A stretch of 64,000 nt of DNA, from contig VLTN01000042.1 in NCBI GenBank assembly GCA_008330645.1, positions 245,478 to 309,477 of the forward strand, written 5' to 3'. The DNA comes from Cafeteria roenbergensis. Taxonomy: Eukaryota; Sar; Bigyra; Bicosoecida; Cafeteriaceae. The notes under the pieces are model-generated. The model was not told where the DNA came from. It did not search any database and saw nothing but the letters and a program-made list of their open reading frames with translations. Position 1 is the first letter of the stretch. Every line of letters begins with the position of its first letter. Shown one piece after another: positions 14,958-26,306 of this stretch. A program made the translations under genes and the position numbers.

Positions 14958-15545
14958 CGCGATGACATCGAGTGTGTGTCTTGGCTGCGTGCCGGCTTTG
15001 GAGCTCACAATCTGCGCTGAGGGCGCCCACCGCAAGAAACGAGTGCGTGTCCTGTTGCCGCAGAGCTCTTGCCGCAAGCGGATCTGGTGCAGTCGTGTTT
15101 GCTCACCCCAGGATCAGCGACGTTGTGCCGCGCGGCCAAGCCCAAGTCGAGCGTGAGAAGCCCGCCCACGACCAGGCCAACCGAGCGCGGGGTGTCGGCG
15201 AGAGAGAACGGGCGCCACCCCTCCGCCGCCGCGTGCGCGCGACGCCGGTTCGCTGTCCCTCTCCCGGTGGCCCCGGCGGGGCCGAGCTTGCGCAGGCATG
15301 CCCGTCCGCCGACCTTGCGGACTGCAGCCTGGCTGCCGCTCGTCGCAGAGTCTGCTCGCTTGTCATTGTGGAGCCGAGCGTCGGCTTGGCGGTGCAACAA
15401 GCTAGCCACTGGCCTCTGGGCAGAGCGAGAGCGCCGGGCAGAGCACTGGGCAGAGCGAGAGCGCCGGGCAGAGCACTGGGCAGAGCGAGAGCGCCGGGCG
15501 GCGCTCAGTGAAAGGCACTTGTGGCTACACACTCCCAGACAAACC

Positions 15546-18073
15546 ATGCAGCGGAGAGCCGGAATGCCCCGCCATGGCGGCCTCGACGAACCCCCAGCGG
15601 CAGAGTGAGCGTGGCGCCGCACACGCCATCGTCTGGCACCGCGGCTGGGCCGCGCCTCGGCGCCCGGGACGAGAACGGAAGGGGCTTGGCTCGCGCCAGA
15701 AAAAAAACGGCCGCTCAGGCTCTTGCTCAGCCGCCTCGCCCCGGCGCCCCCGCCTCTCCCGCCACCCTGCGGCTTCCTGCATCCTTGCACTGGCTGCTGG
15801 CCCCGGCCGTTCGCTTCTGCGCGCGCCGGTCCCATGCTCTTGGCGTTGCGTTTGCGCGGATCTTGCCGGGACACTCCCGCAGAGAACTCACTCACGGCTC
15901 GTTGCCGCTCGATGCACCTGGCCACGTTATTATACTCTTTCAATTTTGCTGCCAAAAGATGGAAATATTTAAGATTATACCTAGGGCAGTGATAGGGCAT
16001 ATATTAAGATGGAACTATTAGATAACCCGTAAGATAAAACCCCTAGGTGTCCCCCCCGTAGGGGGAGCATAAGACCGCCTGCGGTCTTATGTGTCGCGGT
16101 TGAAATTTTCAATTTCATTCGCTGGGGGGGCGGGACACTCCCGCAGAGAGCTCACTCACGGCTCGTTGCCGCTCGATGCACCTGGCCACGCGCACCGCCT
16201 GCTCGGCAGTGGCGTCCTCGCGCCCGGCTGTGATGAGCCCGGAGTGGCGCTGCACCGTCTTGGTCCCGCGCGTGGCGGCCGTCGGGCAGCGGCCATGCCG
16301 GCCACCCCGGAACGCGCCGATCCCAGCACCCAGATGCCGACCAAGTCCGGCGACGACCATGCCGAGCTGCTAGGGCTTGGATCGGGAACGGTTTGGCACC
16401 ACCTCAAGACCCACCAGCCGCAGTCCGAGGCTCTCCTTCAGCATCCGCCGCTGTCCCCCACCGCCTACGGCTCGTTGCCGCTCGACGCGCCAGGCTTCAC
16501 GCACCGATTCGTCGACGGCGCCATCACCGCGCCCGGCTGGGCTGAGCCCGGAGTGGCGCTGCACCGTCTTGGTCCCGCGCGTGGCGGCCGTCGGGCAGCG
16601 GCCATGCCGGCCACCCCGGAACGCGCCGATCCCAGCACCCAGATGCCGACCAAGTCCGGCGACGACCATGCCGAGCTGCTAGGGCTTGGATCGGGAACGG
16701 TTTGGCACCACCTCAAGACCCACCAGCCGCAGTCCAAGGCTCTCCTTCAGCATCCGCCGCTGTCCCCCACCGCCTACGGCTCGGTGCCGCTCGACGCGCC
16801 TGGTATCACGCACCGATTCGTCGACGGCGCCACCCCCACCGCGCCCGGCTGGGCTGAGCCCGGAGTGGCACTGCACCGGCTTGGTCCCGCGCGTGGCGGC
16901 CGTCGGGCAGCGGCCATGCCGGCCACCCCGGAAGGCGCCGATCCCGGCGCCCACACGCCGACAACGCAGAATGGCGGCGGTGCACAGTGCGCCGCGCGCA
17001 GCCCGAGCGTGCTGTGGCGGACGCCTTCGCCCCCGTACGAGGCCGATGCCGAGCAGTTGGATCTACCGCCGCTGGGTAGCGGAACATATGACGAGCACCC
17101 CGCAGACATGGAACAGCAAGACGACTGGCGCGTCGGGTGGTCGTCGTCGACGCCCACGCACTCCAGCAGCCACGCTCCGCGGCCAGCGGGGAAGCGACCA
17201 CGCGACGATTCGGAGGAGGAGCCGCTGGCCAAGCGGCCTGCTCTGGCCCCTCTGTCCGGCAGTGGCTGCCTCGCGCCGACGACGGGCTCGATGGACCGGC
17301 TCGAGGCGCCAGGTCAGGTGGGGGCAGTGGCTGCCCCGGGCGCGGAGGCACCAGAGAGCGCGGACGAGCCCCAGGATCATGCCGTACCCAGCGACGGCGC
17401 GGATGACCGCGACGACGACGGCGATGACGGCGCCGATGAGGAAGGCTACGAGCCCGCCCCGGCAAGGCGTCGGCGCCGACCAGCCGCGCGCCGCGTGCGG
17501 TTGGAGCGCAATGCCAGGCGCCTCATGCAGGAGCGTGCCGATGCCAGCGACGACGAGGATGACCGCGACGACGGCGGCGATGACGGCGCCGATGAGGAAG
17601 GCTACGAGCCCGCCCCGGCAAGGCGTCGGCGCCCACCAGCCGTGCGCCGCGCACGGATGGGGGCCGCTGCCGGCAGGGGATGCTCCTCCAAGGACCACGC
17701 CTGCACATACCCCGGATGCGCCAAGGCCTTCAAGAGCAACTCCGACCTCGCCGCGCACATGCGCACCCACACCGGAGAGAAGCCGCTCAAGTGCAGGTAC
17801 GAGGGGTGCGACGCCGCCTTCGCCCACAGCAGCAACCGCCGGCAGCACGAGCGCTCCAAGCACGAGAAGGTGAAGCGGTACCACTGCCGCTTCCCGAGGT
17901 GCAAGAAGGAGTACGCGCACCCGACGAGCCGCAATGACCACGAAGCCGTGCAGCACCGGGGCGAGCGGCCGTACACGTGCAAGTTGTGCGGGGCGAGCTT
18001 CACGGCGCGGGCGAACCTTACCCGGCACAGTAAGCTCGGCCAGTGCCCGGGCAGTGATGGCGATGATTCGTGA
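15546..18073 (+). CDS. C2H2 zinc-finger protein, array copy B (interrupted by an insertion)
   Basis: First exon is 15546-15604, identical in pattern to the other copies. The original acceptor (AG at 15881-15882) now leads into a short stretch that breaks at a stop near 16021 because of inserted AT-rich DNA. A second acceptor (AG at 16145-16146), supplied by the duplicated flank, opens 16147-18073, which is in phase with exon 1 (about 661 residues). Splicing to that site would therefore leave the protein intact and place the insertion in the intron. The product has three 103-residue modules, two acidic 52-residue modules and the same four fingers; finger-block differences from copy A include RYHCRFPRCKKEY. 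Expression is unproven. Confidence 0.65.
15867..15926 (+). repeat. 60-bp flanking duplication, left copy
   Basis: Begins CGGGACACTCCCGCAG and ends CTGGCCACG. It is repeated at 16131-16190 with a single difference (GAGAACTC here, GAGAGCTC there). It contains the intron acceptor and the first codons of the large exon. Confidence 0.92.
15927..16130. mobile_element. AT-rich foreign insertion (organelle-like) in zinc-finger copy B
   Basis: 204 bp absent from copies A, C and D at the same site. The first 115 bases are about 30% G+C, against roughly 70% around it. It ends in a G7 run and contains C7/G5 runs, a perfect 11-bp inverted repeat at 16068-16091 and no convincing open frame. Composition and hairpins suggest mitochondrial or plastid DNA captured in the nucleus; a fragment of an AT-rich mobile or viral-type element is the alternative. 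The flanks are a 60-bp direct duplication, much longer than typical transposon target duplications. Confidence 0.6.
16131..16190 (+). repeat. 60-bp flanking duplication, right copy
   Basis: Second copy of the block at 15867-15926 (59 of 60 identical). It supplies a fresh CCCGCAG acceptor downstream of the AT-rich insertion. Its GAGAGCTC variant matches units C and D, whereas the left copy matches unit A, which hints that recombination between units shaped the junction. Confidence 0.92.
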
Positions 18074-21076: not shown

Positions 21077-24000
21077 GGGCAGAGCGAGAGCGCCCGGCAG
21101 AGCACTGGGCAGAGCGAGAGCGCCGGGCAGAGCACTGGGCAGAGCGAGAGCGCCGGGCGGCGCTCAGTGAAAAGCACTTGTGGCTACACACTCCCAGACA
21201 AACCATGCAGCGGAGAGCCGGAATGCCCCGCCATGGCGGCCTCGACGAACCCCCAGCGGCAGAGTGAGCGTGGCGCCGCACACGCCATCGTCTGGCACCG
21301 CGGCTGGGCCGCGCCTCGGCGCCCGGGACGAGAACGGAAGGGGCTTGGCTCGCGCCAGAAAAAAAACGGCCGCTCAGGCTCTTGCTCAGCCGCCTCGCCC
21401 CGGCGCCCCCGCCTCTCCCGCCACCCTGCGGCTTCCTGCATCCTTGCACTGGCTGCTGGCCCCGGCCGTTCGCTTCTGCGCGCGCCGGTCCCATGCTCTT
21501 GGCGTTGCGTTTGCGCGGATCTTGCCGGGACACTCCCGCAGAGAGCTCACTCACGGCTCGTTGCCGCTCGATGCGCCTGGCCACGCGCACCGCCTGCTCG
21601 GCAGTGGCGTCCTCGCGCCCGGCTGTGATGAGCCCGGAGTGGCGCTGCACCGTCTTGGTCCCGCGCGTGGCGACCGTCGGGCAGCGGCCATGCCGGCCAC
21701 CCCGGAACGCGCCGATCCCAGCACCCAGATGCCGACCAAGTCCGGCGACGACCATGTCGAGCTGCTAGGGCTTGGATCGGGAACGGTTTGGCACCACCTC
21801 AAGACCCACCAGCCGCAGTCCGAGGATCTCCTTCAGCATCCGCCGCTGTCCCCCACCGCCTACGGCTCGTTGCCGCTCGACGCGCCTGGTATCACGCAGC
21901 GATTCGTCGACGGCGCCACCCCCACCGCGCCCGGCTGGGCTGAGCCCGGAGTGGCACTGCACCGTCTTGGTCCCGCGCATGGCGGCCGTCGGGCAGCGGC
22001 CATGCCGGCCACCCCTGAACGCGCCGATCCCAGCACCCAGATGCCGACCAAGTCCGGCGACGACCATGTCGAGCTGCTAGGGCTTGGATCGGGAACGGTT
22101 TGGCACCACCTCAAGACCCACCAGCCGCAGTCCGAGGCTCTCCTTCAGCATCCGCCGCTGTCCCCCACCGCCTACGGCTCGTTGCCGCTCGACGCGCCTG
22201 GTATCACGCACCGATTCGTCGACGGCGCCACCCCCACCGCGCCCGGCTGGGCTGAGCCCGGAGTGGCACTGCACCGGCTTGGTCCCGCGCGTGGCGGCCG
22301 TCGGGCAGCGGCCATGCCGGCCACCCCGGAAGGCGCCAATCCCGGCGCCCACACGCCGACAACGCAGAATGGCGGCGGTGCACAGTGCGCCGCGCGCAGC
22401 CCGAGCGTGCTGTGGCGGACGCCTTCGCCCCCGTACGAGGCCGATGCCGAGCAGTTGGATCTACCGCCGCTGGGGTAGCGGAACATATGACGAGCACCCC
22501 GCAGACATGGAACAGCAAGACGACTGGCGCGTCGGGTGCTCGTCGTCGACGCCCACGCACTCCAGCAGCCACGCTCCGCGGCCAGCGGGGAAGCGACCAC
22601 GCGACGATTCGGAGGAGGAGCCGCTGGCCAAGCGGCCTGCTCTGGCCCCTCTGTCCGGCAGTGGCTGCCTCGCGCCGACGACGGGCTCGATGGACCGGCT
22701 CGAGGCGCCAGGCCAGGTGGGGGCAGTGGCTGCCCCGGGCGCGGAGGCACCAGAGAGCGCGGACAAGCCCCAGGATCATGCCGTACCCAGCGACGGCGCG
22801 GATGACCGCGACGACGGCGGCGATGACGGCGCCGATGAGGAAGGCTACGACCCCGCCCCGGCAAGGCGTCGGCGCCGACCAGCCGCGCGCCGCGTGCGGT
22901 TGGAGCGCAATGCCAGGCGCCTCATGCAGGAGCGTGCCGATGCCAGCGACGACGAGGATGACCGCGACGACGGCGGCGATGACGGCGCCGATGAGGAAGG
23001 CTACGAGCCCGCCCCGGCAAGGCGTCGGCGCCGACCAGCCGCGCGCCGCGTGCGGTTGGAGCGCAATGCCAGGCGCCTCATGCAGGAGCGTGCCGATGCC
23101 AGCGACGACGAGGATGACCGCGACGACGGCGGCGATGACGGCGCCGATGAGGAAGGCTACGAGCCCGCCCCGGCAAGGCGTCGGCGCCCACCAGCCGTGC
23201 GCCGCGCACGGATGGGGGCCGCTGCCGGCAGGGGATGCTCCTCCAAGGACCACGCCTGCACATACCCCGGATGCGCCAAGGCCTTCAAGAGCAACTCCGA
23301 CCTCGCCGCGCACATGCGCACCCACACCGGAGAGAAGCCGCTCGAGTGCAGGTACGAGGGGTGCGACGCCGCCTTCGCCCACAGCAGCAACCGCCGGCAG
23401 CACGAGCGCTCCAAGCACGAGAAGGTGAAGCGGTACCACTGCCGCTTCCCGAGGTGCAAGAAGGAGTACGCGCACCCGACGAGCCGCAATGACCACGAGG
23501 CCGTGCAGCACCGGGGCGAGCGGCCGTACAAGTGCAAGTTGTGCGGGGCGAGCTTCACGGCGCGGGCGAACCTGTCCCGGCACAGGAAGCTCGGCGAGTG
23601 CTCGGGCAGTGATGGCGATGATTCGTGACGCGATGACAGCGAGTGTGTGTCTTGGCTGCGTGCCGGCTTTGGAGCTCACAATCTGCGCTGAGGGCGCCCA
23701 CCGCAAGAAACGAGTGCGTGTCCTGTTGCCGCAGAGCTCTTGCCGCAAGCGGATCTGGTGCAGTCATGTTTGCTCACCCCAGGATCAGCGACGTTGTGCC
23801 GCGCGGCCAAGCCCAAGTCGAGCGTGAGAAGCCCGCCCACGACCAGGCCAACCGAGCTCGGGGTGTCGGCGAGAGAGAACGGGCGCCACCCCTCCGCCGC
23901 CGCGTGCGCGCGATGCCGGTTCGCTGTCCCTCTCCCGGTGGCCCCGGCGGGGCCGAGCTTGCGCAGGCATGCCCGTCCGCCGACCTTGCGGACTGCAGCC

Positions 24001-24152: not shown

Positions 24153-25859
24153 ATGCGCAGCTCAGACCACCCCGCAGCGTGGTCGAGGCAACCCCCCGTG
24201 TGGTCCTCCCGAGTCGCGTGTGGCTGCCTCGAGGCCTGCCGGTGCGCGCAGGCAGCCGCCAACGCCCTGCAAAAAGCTAGGGCGGCAAGCGAGACGTTGC
24301 TGGCTATTGTTCCCGCAGTTGTTGACAAGCCGACCGTGCCAGGCATATTGGCAGCCAGAGGCGGATTCTCGGGCTCCGACCCACTGCCCAGCCTCATGGA
24401 CCTTGACGACTCTCCTTTCGTCGCCTCCATGGTCGGCCTGTGCGCGCAAAGCGCCGGGAGGGATGCCCCTGGGCTCCAGTTGTGGCGTGTGGAAACGCGA
24501 GTCGAAGCTCTTGCTGACCCCGATCTTGGGACGTGGGAGCACCTCCAAGGGGCGTACAGCTTTGCCGACGGGAGCCCTCTCGCTGAAGGTGACGGCCGGT
24601 CAACTGCCAGCATGCTAGGGGCGGGGGCCGAATTCGGTCAAGACGAATCTTCTCTCAGCGGACAAGGCGAGACAAGGCTGTTGCTGGACACTTGCCATCC
24701 GGAAACAAAGCCCAGCCCAGCCAGCTTCGAGCCTCGAGGCTCCTCCCCGCGCCGCGCATCGACCTGCCGCGGAAGGCTTGCTGCTGCCTCTGCGCCTAGC
24801 GGCCTTCGTGGCGACGGCCTGGCCACCGCTGGCATCGCCGCAACCGGACTGGACATCCCTCGGAGAACCTTCTGGCTGCAGGGCAGCACAGACCTCGGGG
24901 AAGCGCCGCCAGGCCCACGCCCGTGGCCAGGCGCGGGCGTTGGAGCAGGGCCGGGCGCCGGGAGCCAGCGTCTGGGGCTTGAGCAGGGGGGCGGGCGCGA
25001 CGGGCGGCTGTTTGAGCTGAGGGGCGCTGCGCCGGGCCTCCAACACCCTGGGCCCATTTCAGCATGGAATGTTGCCCGCAAAACGCAGGGCGCAGATTTA
25101 ACACCCCCGAGCTATTCGGTGGGGCGGATCGGGACCTGCAAGCGGCTCCGTGAGGGGGCGGACGCGGCGGGCACCGAGCGACGGAGCTCGCAATCTGTGC
25201 TGCTCGCTACGCAACGTGCGCTCCCCTCGCAGCCACTAGCTCGGCCAAGGCATGCTGTCCACGTGCTAGCTCATCACGGGGCACACGAGCTCGACGCCAA
25301 GGGGTGTCAAGTCAGGGGGGTCGGCCATGAGTCGCCCTTTCCGCTCGCACCGGCAGCAGACACGAGTGACAGCGATGCCGTCAGCGACGCAGGGGACGAC
25401 CCAGACTTCGAGGACCCCGAAATTAAGCGCGTGCGGCCGAAGCGGGCCAAGCGTGGAGGGGCACCTGGCCGCCAGGGCGCCGTTGTCAAGAGGTACAAGT
25501 GCTCGTTTGCGGGCTGCTCCAAGGCCTTCAAGAGCAACTCCGACCTCGCCGCGCACATGCGCACCCACACCGGAGAGAAGCCGCTCAAGTGCAAGTACGA
25601 GGGGTGCGACGCCGCCTTCGCCCACAGCAGCAACCGCCGGCAGCACGAGCGCTCCAAGCACGAGAAGGTGAAGCGGTACCACTGCCGCTTCCCGGGGTGC
25701 AAGAAGGAGTACGCGCACCCAACGAGCCGGAGGGATCACGAGGCTGTGAAGCACCGGGGCGAGCGGCCGTACACGTGCAAGTTGTGCGGGGCAAGCTTCA
25801 CGGCCCGGGCGAACCTTTCGCGCCACAAGTCGACCCAAGATTGCAAGCCAGGGGTCTGA
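24153..25859 (+). CDS. C2H2 zinc-finger protein E, divergent neighbour of the array
   Basis: 568 residues in one exon from ATG 24153. The N-terminal 430 residues are unrelated to the array copies: CGCLEACRCAQAAANALQKA, LPSLMDLDDSPF, Gly/Pro-rich linker, then DSDAVSDAGDDPDFEDPEIK and a basic KRVRPKRAKRGG patch. The C-terminal finger block is nearly identical to the array: CSFAGCSKAFKSNSDLAAHM, HERSKHEKVKRYHCRFPGCK, CKLCGASFTARANLSRH, differing at few positions (SRRDHEAVKH). It lacks the 103- and 52-residue modules. It is probably the source of, or a partner in gene conversion with, the array. Confidence 0.82.
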   Translation: MRSSDHPAAWSRQPPVWSSRVACGCLEACRCAQAAANALQKARAASETLLAIVPAVVDKPTVPGILAARGGFSGSDPLPSLMDLDDSPFVASMVGLCAQSAGRDAPGLQLWRVETRVEALADPDLGTWEHLQGAYSFADGSPLAEGDGRSTASMLGAGAEFGQDESSLSGQGETRLLLDTCHPETKPSPASFEPRGSSPRRASTCRGRLAAASAPSGLRGDGLATAGIAATGLDIPRRTFWLQGSTDLGEAPPGPRPWPGAGVGAGPGAGSQRLGLEQGGGRDGRLFELRGAAPGLQHPGPISAWNVARKTQGADLTPPSYSVGRIGTCKRLREGADAAGTERRSSQSVLLATQRALPSQPLARPRHAVHVLAHHGAHELDAKGCQVRGVGHESPFPLAPAADTSDSDAVSDAGDDPDFEDPEIKRVRPKRAKRGGAPGRQGAVVKRYKCSFAGCSKAFKSNSDLAAHMRTHTGEKPLKCKYEGCDAAFAHSSNRRQHERSKHEKVKRYHCRFPGCKKEYAHPTSRRDHEAVKHRGERPYTCKLCGASFTARANLSRHKSTQDCKPGV

Positions 25860-26306
25860 AAGCCCTGGACGTGGCTAGCTTGACAGCGCTTGCGGTTCCC
25901 CCACCCCGCCGTGCCATTGCGGCGCGGCGGCCTTCGAGTAGTTTGATCGATAGCAGTTCTGCTAGTGTGCGACGCTCAGCGCAGATCCAATTTCGCCTCG
26001 CCGCCGCTGCCTCGGAATGCCTCGGGCGACCCGACCACTCTCCCGCGAAGATGCCACAGGCTGCACAGCATGGTTGGCAGGGTTCTAGAAGGAGGCTGTG
26101 CCCTCCAGGCTGGCGGAGCGCGGGCGCTCAGCGAGCTTTGGTTCGGCATGGTGGCGTCGTGCTTGCCGCGCGCGTCGTCGCCGCGGCGTTGCGAGTGTGG
26201 CAGAGCCCGCCGGTCCTCCAAGCGTCGCAGCCGGCGGTGCCGAGAGGCCACGCGCGCGCCCCTCGCTGCCTCGGCCACTCGCTGCAAGGACGCTGCGGCA
26301 GGTGCG
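25860..26306. other. Intergenic region after zinc-finger E
   Basis: About 450 bp with no convincing gene; probably the 3' end of the zinc-finger gene and the promoter of the membrane-protein gene. Confidence 0.4.

Follow-up and report, generated by a model that had tools for sequence, protein, structure and literature searches.

A solo terminal fragment of a mavirus-type virophage, flanked by a 60-bp host duplication, in a predicted zinc-finger gene of Cafeteria roenbergensis

One of four tandem zinc-finger genes (A-D) of Cafeteria roenbergensis carries a short stretch of AT-rich DNA, which raises the questions of where this DNA came from, how it entered the gene, and what it does to the reading of that gene. 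The array lies on contig C42, in a 64-kb stretch of about 70% GC that was analysed as a whole and is hereafter called the window. The insert in copy B comes from an integrated virophage, known as an endogenous mavirus-like element (EMALE), and corresponds to the outermost part of its terminal inverted repeat (TIR); virophages are viruses that parasitise giant viruses. The features of the locus are as follows.

15546-15604, plus strand: predicted exon 1 of zinc-finger copy B, from ATG to the donor GTGAGC (reading frames only)
15867-15926, plus strand: left copy of the 60-bp host duplication, with the first predicted 3' splice site AG at 15881-15882 (repeat comparison and frames)
15927-16130, plus strand: solo outer fragment of an EMALE (mavirus type) TIR; left edge cut inside the TIR, right edge the terminus
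15927-16063, plus strand: stretch with 93% identity to the C55-type TIR (genome search)
16068-16091, no strand: terminal hairpin 1, with an 11-bp perfect stem, a 2-nt loop and a third sequence version
16096-16122, no strand: terminal hairpin 2
16124-16130, plus strand: seven G at the very end of the viral sequence (exactly seven at 11 of 21 termini, the window's included)
16131-16190, plus strand: right copy of the 60-bp host duplication, with the second predicted 3' splice site AG at 16145-16146
16147-18073, plus strand: predicted exon 2 of copy B, with long internal repeats (309-312 nt spacing) and C2H2 zinc fingers

The insert and its source

The insert is 204 nt long with 42.6% GC (38% in its first 137 nt), and the 150-nt segments of lowest GC in the whole 64 kb fall upon it (0.39, against a mean of 0.704 and a standard deviation of 0.055 over 6,386 segments). 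A sequence-only reading had described AT-rich DNA in copy B at a point where A, C and D are continuous, bounded by 60-bp direct repeats, and both observations were borne out. A 621-nt query from paralogue A was unbroken in A, C and D (100, 99 and 99%) and split in copy B into query positions 1-381 and 322-621, with all 12 reported matches inside the window's own array. Repeat comparison placed the direct repeats, identical at 59 of 60 positions, exactly at the two edges of the insert.

The same reading had assigned the left flank to the variant of unit A and the right flank to that of C/D. Of the two variant sites, the left repeat indeed has the A form at both; the right repeat has the C/D form at one only and the A form at the other. 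Recombination with unit A, which had been suggested on these grounds, concerns one or two variant sites and is not needed, as copy B upstream of the insert on the whole resembles C and D, from which it differs in 12 and 10 of 988 columns (316 for A), with A's letter at 15397, 15402 and 15514, three sites where C/D differ. Two further features of the array were observed. Copy D has one extra G relative to copy B at 22465-22478, which could be real or a homopolymer error, and the resulting frameshift stops its protein at 331 aa. A fifth zinc-finger copy follows the array (25500-25860); its finger region is 95% identical to that of copy A over a 300-nt block, and its upstream region is unlike copy A's.

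The genome searched comprised 36,303,456 bases in 167 contigs. The first 137 nt of the insert matched seven other places at 93% over 138 aligned columns, and these places are the outer parts of long TIRs. On contig C55, two inverted TIRs of 624 bp, 99.8% identical, bound an AT-rich element of about 19.8 kb (23-44% GC in 250-nt steps over its parts L011 and L012, the middle part L016 lying outside this profile). Four of six open frames from the ends of this element had Pfam matches, namely an rve integrase with a chromodomain (the latter match below Pfam's cut-off), DUF5906, Peptidase_S74 and the V20 major capsid protein (MCP_V20_C); the other two had no Pfam match, and one of seven frames from the middle reached the cut-off, as GIY-YIG. 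The capsid protein matched along its whole length (E=0) the PDB entry 6g45, the mavirus capsid protein. Because the insert matches TIRs that bound elements with capsid and integrase genes, it is virophage DNA, and the earlier suggestion of a foreign insertion was correct. Other parts of the genome contain elements some 20 kb long that encode an integrase and a capsid protein of the mavirus type. Passages of PMC8547959 and PMC10945749 state that type-4 virophages were named after contigs 55 and 2 of strain BVI, and the elements of this kind are found here on C55 and C2. BVI is a strain of Cafeteria burkhardae, which was earlier published as C. roenbergensis.

An EMALE requires two inverted TIRs. 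The window copy has one end only, and its left edge lies inside the TIR; it is therefore a fragment and not a complete member, with the family's terminal structure of two hairpins and a G run at its outer edge. No capsid or integrase gene was found within the 204 nt, and six pieces of the elements matched the window only at the insert. A short non-autonomous element of the MITE kind was considered and rejected, since its two edges do not mirror each other as inverted copies and the left one falls within the TIR, and so was a solo element left by recombination between TIRs, which are inverted and each longer than the piece. Three DNA patterns and one capsid-protein search gave no match among environmental viral contigs, a collection from which records near this genome may be absent.

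Compared with the EMALE04 or mavirus-type virophages of Cafeteria burkhardae, as presented in parts of Hackl et al. 2021 (PMC8547959), the insert is alike in its TIR (93%, 138 columns), its terminal double hairpin and G7 end, its GC-rich host and its site inside a predicted host gene. It differs in measuring 204 nt instead of about 20 kb, in having one end and no genes, in its third hairpin version, and in a host duplication of 60 bp instead of mostly 3-5 bp.

One exact terminus and one truncated edge

A terminus pattern was defined as CCCCTAGGTGT followed by 55-85 free bases and six G, a definition that altered termini and other EMALE types would escape. Genome-wide it gave 38 raw matches at 21 places, all of them termini of this one family by sequence, and the reversed control gave none. 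A G run was present at all 21 readable termini, with seven G in 11 (including the window's), eight in two, nine in seven and six in one. As the right edge of the insert has seven G, like 10 of the 20 other termini, it represents a complete terminus. The left edge sets the window copy apart, for it is the only one of the 21 to be cut within the TIR; 19 of the other 20 continue inward, and one reaches a contig end. Each of the 13 C2-type termini extends over about 450 nt and on into the inner 150 nt. Of the seven C55-type termini, six span the whole TIR and the seventh runs off the end of its contig.

Some TIRs are interrupted farther inward. On C62, which carries one of the C2-type termini, the inner part is split into two pieces (C62:5251-5291 and C62:11670-11790) that lie about 6.4 kb apart with an 8-nt overlap, and on C96 (L013, 5283 onward) the AT-rich TIR runs for about 610 nt and then gives way at once to GC-rich DNA; a nested retrotransposon, as reported for EMALEs, could account for either interruption. 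The host flanks beside the virophage ends on C119 (L009) and C96 (L013) are 97% identical over about 4.7 kb, the locus having either been duplicated or been assembled as two separate alleles.

The outer 67 nt of the insert are unlike the other versions in sequence, yet two hairpins are kept before the G run. Three sequence versions of this arrangement of adjacent hairpins and G run were found, at L012 5390-5474, L049 1066-1149 and window positions 16046-16130, and changes on both sides of the stems keep the pairing among them. Folding as DNA gave z = -4.6 for the window terminus and z = -7.5 for the C55 terminus; folding of the whole 204 nt as RNA gave z = -2.6. A perfect 11-bp stem like that of hairpin 1 arose in one of 2,000 shuffles. 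A covariance model trained on six termini other than the window's recovered the window copy at full length (16039-16130) as its sole match in the 64 kb (E=2.9e-5), with a score of 28 bits that is far below the 87-112 bits of the other 20 termini and comes in part from the common CCCCTAGGTGT and G run. In an alignment of the 21 termini (six distinct rows), which was fitted to the model's structure and so favours covariation, eight of 31 pairs were changed on both sides, against a shuffle mean of 1.9 and none of 500 shuffles as high; slid versions of the hairpin pairing gave zero to two double changes. The number of further pair types in this alignment was not exceptional (50 of 500 shuffles as high), and seven of nine double changes were confined to a single row, by inspection that of the window. 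A two-hairpin terminus conserved through apparently compensatory changes suggests a recognition element, a reading that fits the statement, in part of PMC10945749, that new primase/helicase versions are always accompanied by a changed TIR sequence.

The relation between the C55-type (L012 2884-5474) and C2-type (L022, L049) elements fits this published link as well. Their DNA is about 97-99% identical over the integrase and over the helicase's C-terminal third; no DNA match is seen for the remainder of the helicase, the inner TIR agrees again, and in the middle TIR one sequence replaces another. A virophage integrase match on C102 (56673-57743, L026) contains 24 in-frame stops and has 53% identity by translation; it is probably frameshifted, because its DNA is 94% identical over the gene despite the stops.

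Origin of the insertion

The repeats flanking the insert are not those of an ordinary integration. Host duplications at the three elements with both ends available measure 3, 3 and 2-5 bp. Published EMALE target duplications are mostly 3-5 bp with a range of 1-9 bp, according to part of PMC8547959; at 60 bp the duplication lies outside this range and is about 12-20 times the usual length, as the sequence-only reading had anticipated in calling it too long for a target-site duplication. Microhomology amounted to 0 bp at either junction.

Retroviral integrases belong to the same rve core domain family as the virophage integrase. In aberrant HIV integrations, as set out in part of PMC5041404, one end is exact, the other is often truncated, and a large host duplication is formed; these duplications run to hundreds or thousands of bp, and microhomology is usual at the aberrant end. 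The insert likewise combines one exact viral end, a truncated other end and an oversized host duplication. Based upon this match, and by analogy with the retroviral case, the insert is probably, though well short of certainly, the scar of an abortive, one-ended virophage integration.

We infer the part of the integrase and the order of events from features that were read directly, namely the identity of the insert, its exact right terminus, its truncated left edge and the duplication. An rve-type virophage integrase would have joined one end of linear viral DNA, the G7 terminus, to the host intron beside CGGGAC and would have left the second end unjoined. Host repair would then have trimmed the viral DNA to 204 nt and sealed the trimmed end, without microhomology, to the host 60 bp beyond the first joint. 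Sealing at that point would leave these 60 bp of the host in two copies. The viral tip would be removable with an enlarged 542-nt intron if the second splice site were used.

Several points speak against a one-ended integration. Microhomology is missing at both joints, though usual in the cases covered by the relevant part of PMC5041404; simple ligation of a linear viral end could give an exact terminus too; no parent element with the window's hairpin version was found in the genome, where the outer 91 nt of the insert match only themselves; and the one mismatch between the 60-bp repeats needs a later mutation or unequal units. The aberrant HIV and ASLV integrations described in part of PMC5041404 are like the insert in their exact end, truncated end, overlong host duplication and rve-type integrase. 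The insert differs as a natural event of a DNA virophage with 204 nt kept, no microhomology, a process read from sequence, and a duplication of 60 bp instead of hundreds or thousands.

Filler DNA capture at chromosome breaks is an established process. An example is provided by numt-type insertions at double-strand breaks (part of PMC2567098), which are likewise short foreign fillers in a nuclear genome; the insert differs from them in its source, the end of a virophage, and in having an exact terminus as one of its edges. Capture during break repair with no integrase, in which a staggered overhang of about 60 nt was filled in and a free fragment of a linear virophage end was ligated, is an unlikely but serious competitor. 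The same picture would be expected from a linear viral end at a staggered break, and the junctions lack microhomology; the right edge, however, is the exact viral terminus and not a random break, which an integrase joint predicts with no extra assumption, although a natural linear end would give it too.

Somewhat less probable is a two-step history, in which a normal full-length integration in one unit was followed by a deletion that fused a neighbouring unit to the interior of the element, the two 60-bp copies then belonging to two units. The tandem spacing of the units (2.5-3.1 kb), the single difference between left and right repeats, as two units would show, and the abundance of EMALEs in this genome all suit such a history. 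Such a deletion would, however, need to end by coincidence no more than 60 bp from the corresponding position of a unit about 2.5 kb long (by our estimate about 2-5%), and the sequence of copy B upstream favours neither side. An assembly chimera or a collapsed allele is improbable: tandem paralogues and multi-copy virophages are hard to assemble, and the evidence is the assembly alone, but the search of the 36.3-Mb assembly found no second place with the last 91 nt of the insert, which leaves no assembled locus among those found as their donor, and a clean 60-bp duplication with an exact viral terminus would be an unusual misjoin. Organellar (mitochondrial or plastid) DNA inserted in the nucleus, which had been put up for testing on the strength of an AT-rich sequence, here with hairpins, in a GC-rich genome, is very improbable in view of the 93% TIR match in the same genome to elements with capsid and integrase genes and of the exact virophage terminus, the search of the assembled contigs as a whole with the insert having returned only virophage TIRs and the insert itself.

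Splicing of copy B and the meaning of the scar

The reading phases at this locus are direct; the existence of the intron and its splicing are predictions. The expected re-creation of the acceptor was confirmed, with an AG in both repeats and the first acceptor intact. Exon 1 joined to the second acceptor (16147) is in phase, as had been claimed, skips the insert and gives a predicted protein of 661 aa with C2H2 zinc fingers; joined to the first acceptor (15883) it gives a predicted 65 aa with a stop inside the insert, and the unspliced exon-1 frame ends after 20 aa. A direct duplication that includes the acceptor always yields an in-phase second junction, so the phase is automatic and does not show that splicing takes place. 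With the 3' splice site included in the 60-bp duplication, the viral tip would be removable by splicing to the second site. The duplication may thereby have turned the viral tip into intron, and the insertion is possibly self-silenced.

Copy B would also escape the insert as a gene with no such intron that starts downstream of it. The exon-2 frame is open upstream, with no ATG before the acceptor, through all of the supposed exon 1 and intron in A and through nearly all or part of them in C/D. In copy B the first in-frame ATG stands at 16295, after the insert, so that an unspliced gene starting there avoids the insert as well. Coding constraint in the first repeat of exon 2, sought as support for the intron, was not seen, as differences fell over all codon positions. 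Introners and transposon-derived introns (part of PMC9860276) are similar in that element DNA may splice out through a site derived from the host duplication of the insertion. The insert differs in being a single event that lengthens an already predicted intron, with no copy family, a 60-bp duplication and putative splicing.

Among the literature matches listed, no report of solo virophage termini or of EMALE terminal hairpins was recognised; the locus might stand in the list of 138 elements of PMC8547959. The word 'hairpin' is absent from those portions of the main text of PMC8547959 and PMC10945749 that were available, and the only one in the corresponding portion of the review PMC6723459 concerns polyadenylation. 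The feature, a lone virophage terminus that lies in a host gene between two copies of 60 bp of host DNA, is real and unusual, and is not categorically new. The authors of the main EMALE survey were, in a passage of PMC8547959, quite confident of having missed no more severely degraded EMALEs, with the possible exception of EMALEs that resemble the host in GC and lack any recognisable similarity. A lone terminus of 204 nt inside a gene would count as a severely degraded EMALE, and indicates that virophages leave scars as small as this one and that the ends of a scar can reveal a failed integration. We propose, tentatively and as a doubtful extension of the one-ended reading, that virophage integrases perform one-ended integrations in nature, that the scar is hidden here in a host intron through an acceptor copied by the oversized duplication, and that it keeps the double hairpin in a third version, whose lineage has yielded no intact copies in this genome. 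Should other strains prove to carry scars of this kind, these would document virophage attacks and failures of the integrase, and would allow a test of the way in which a host gene outlasts an insertion.
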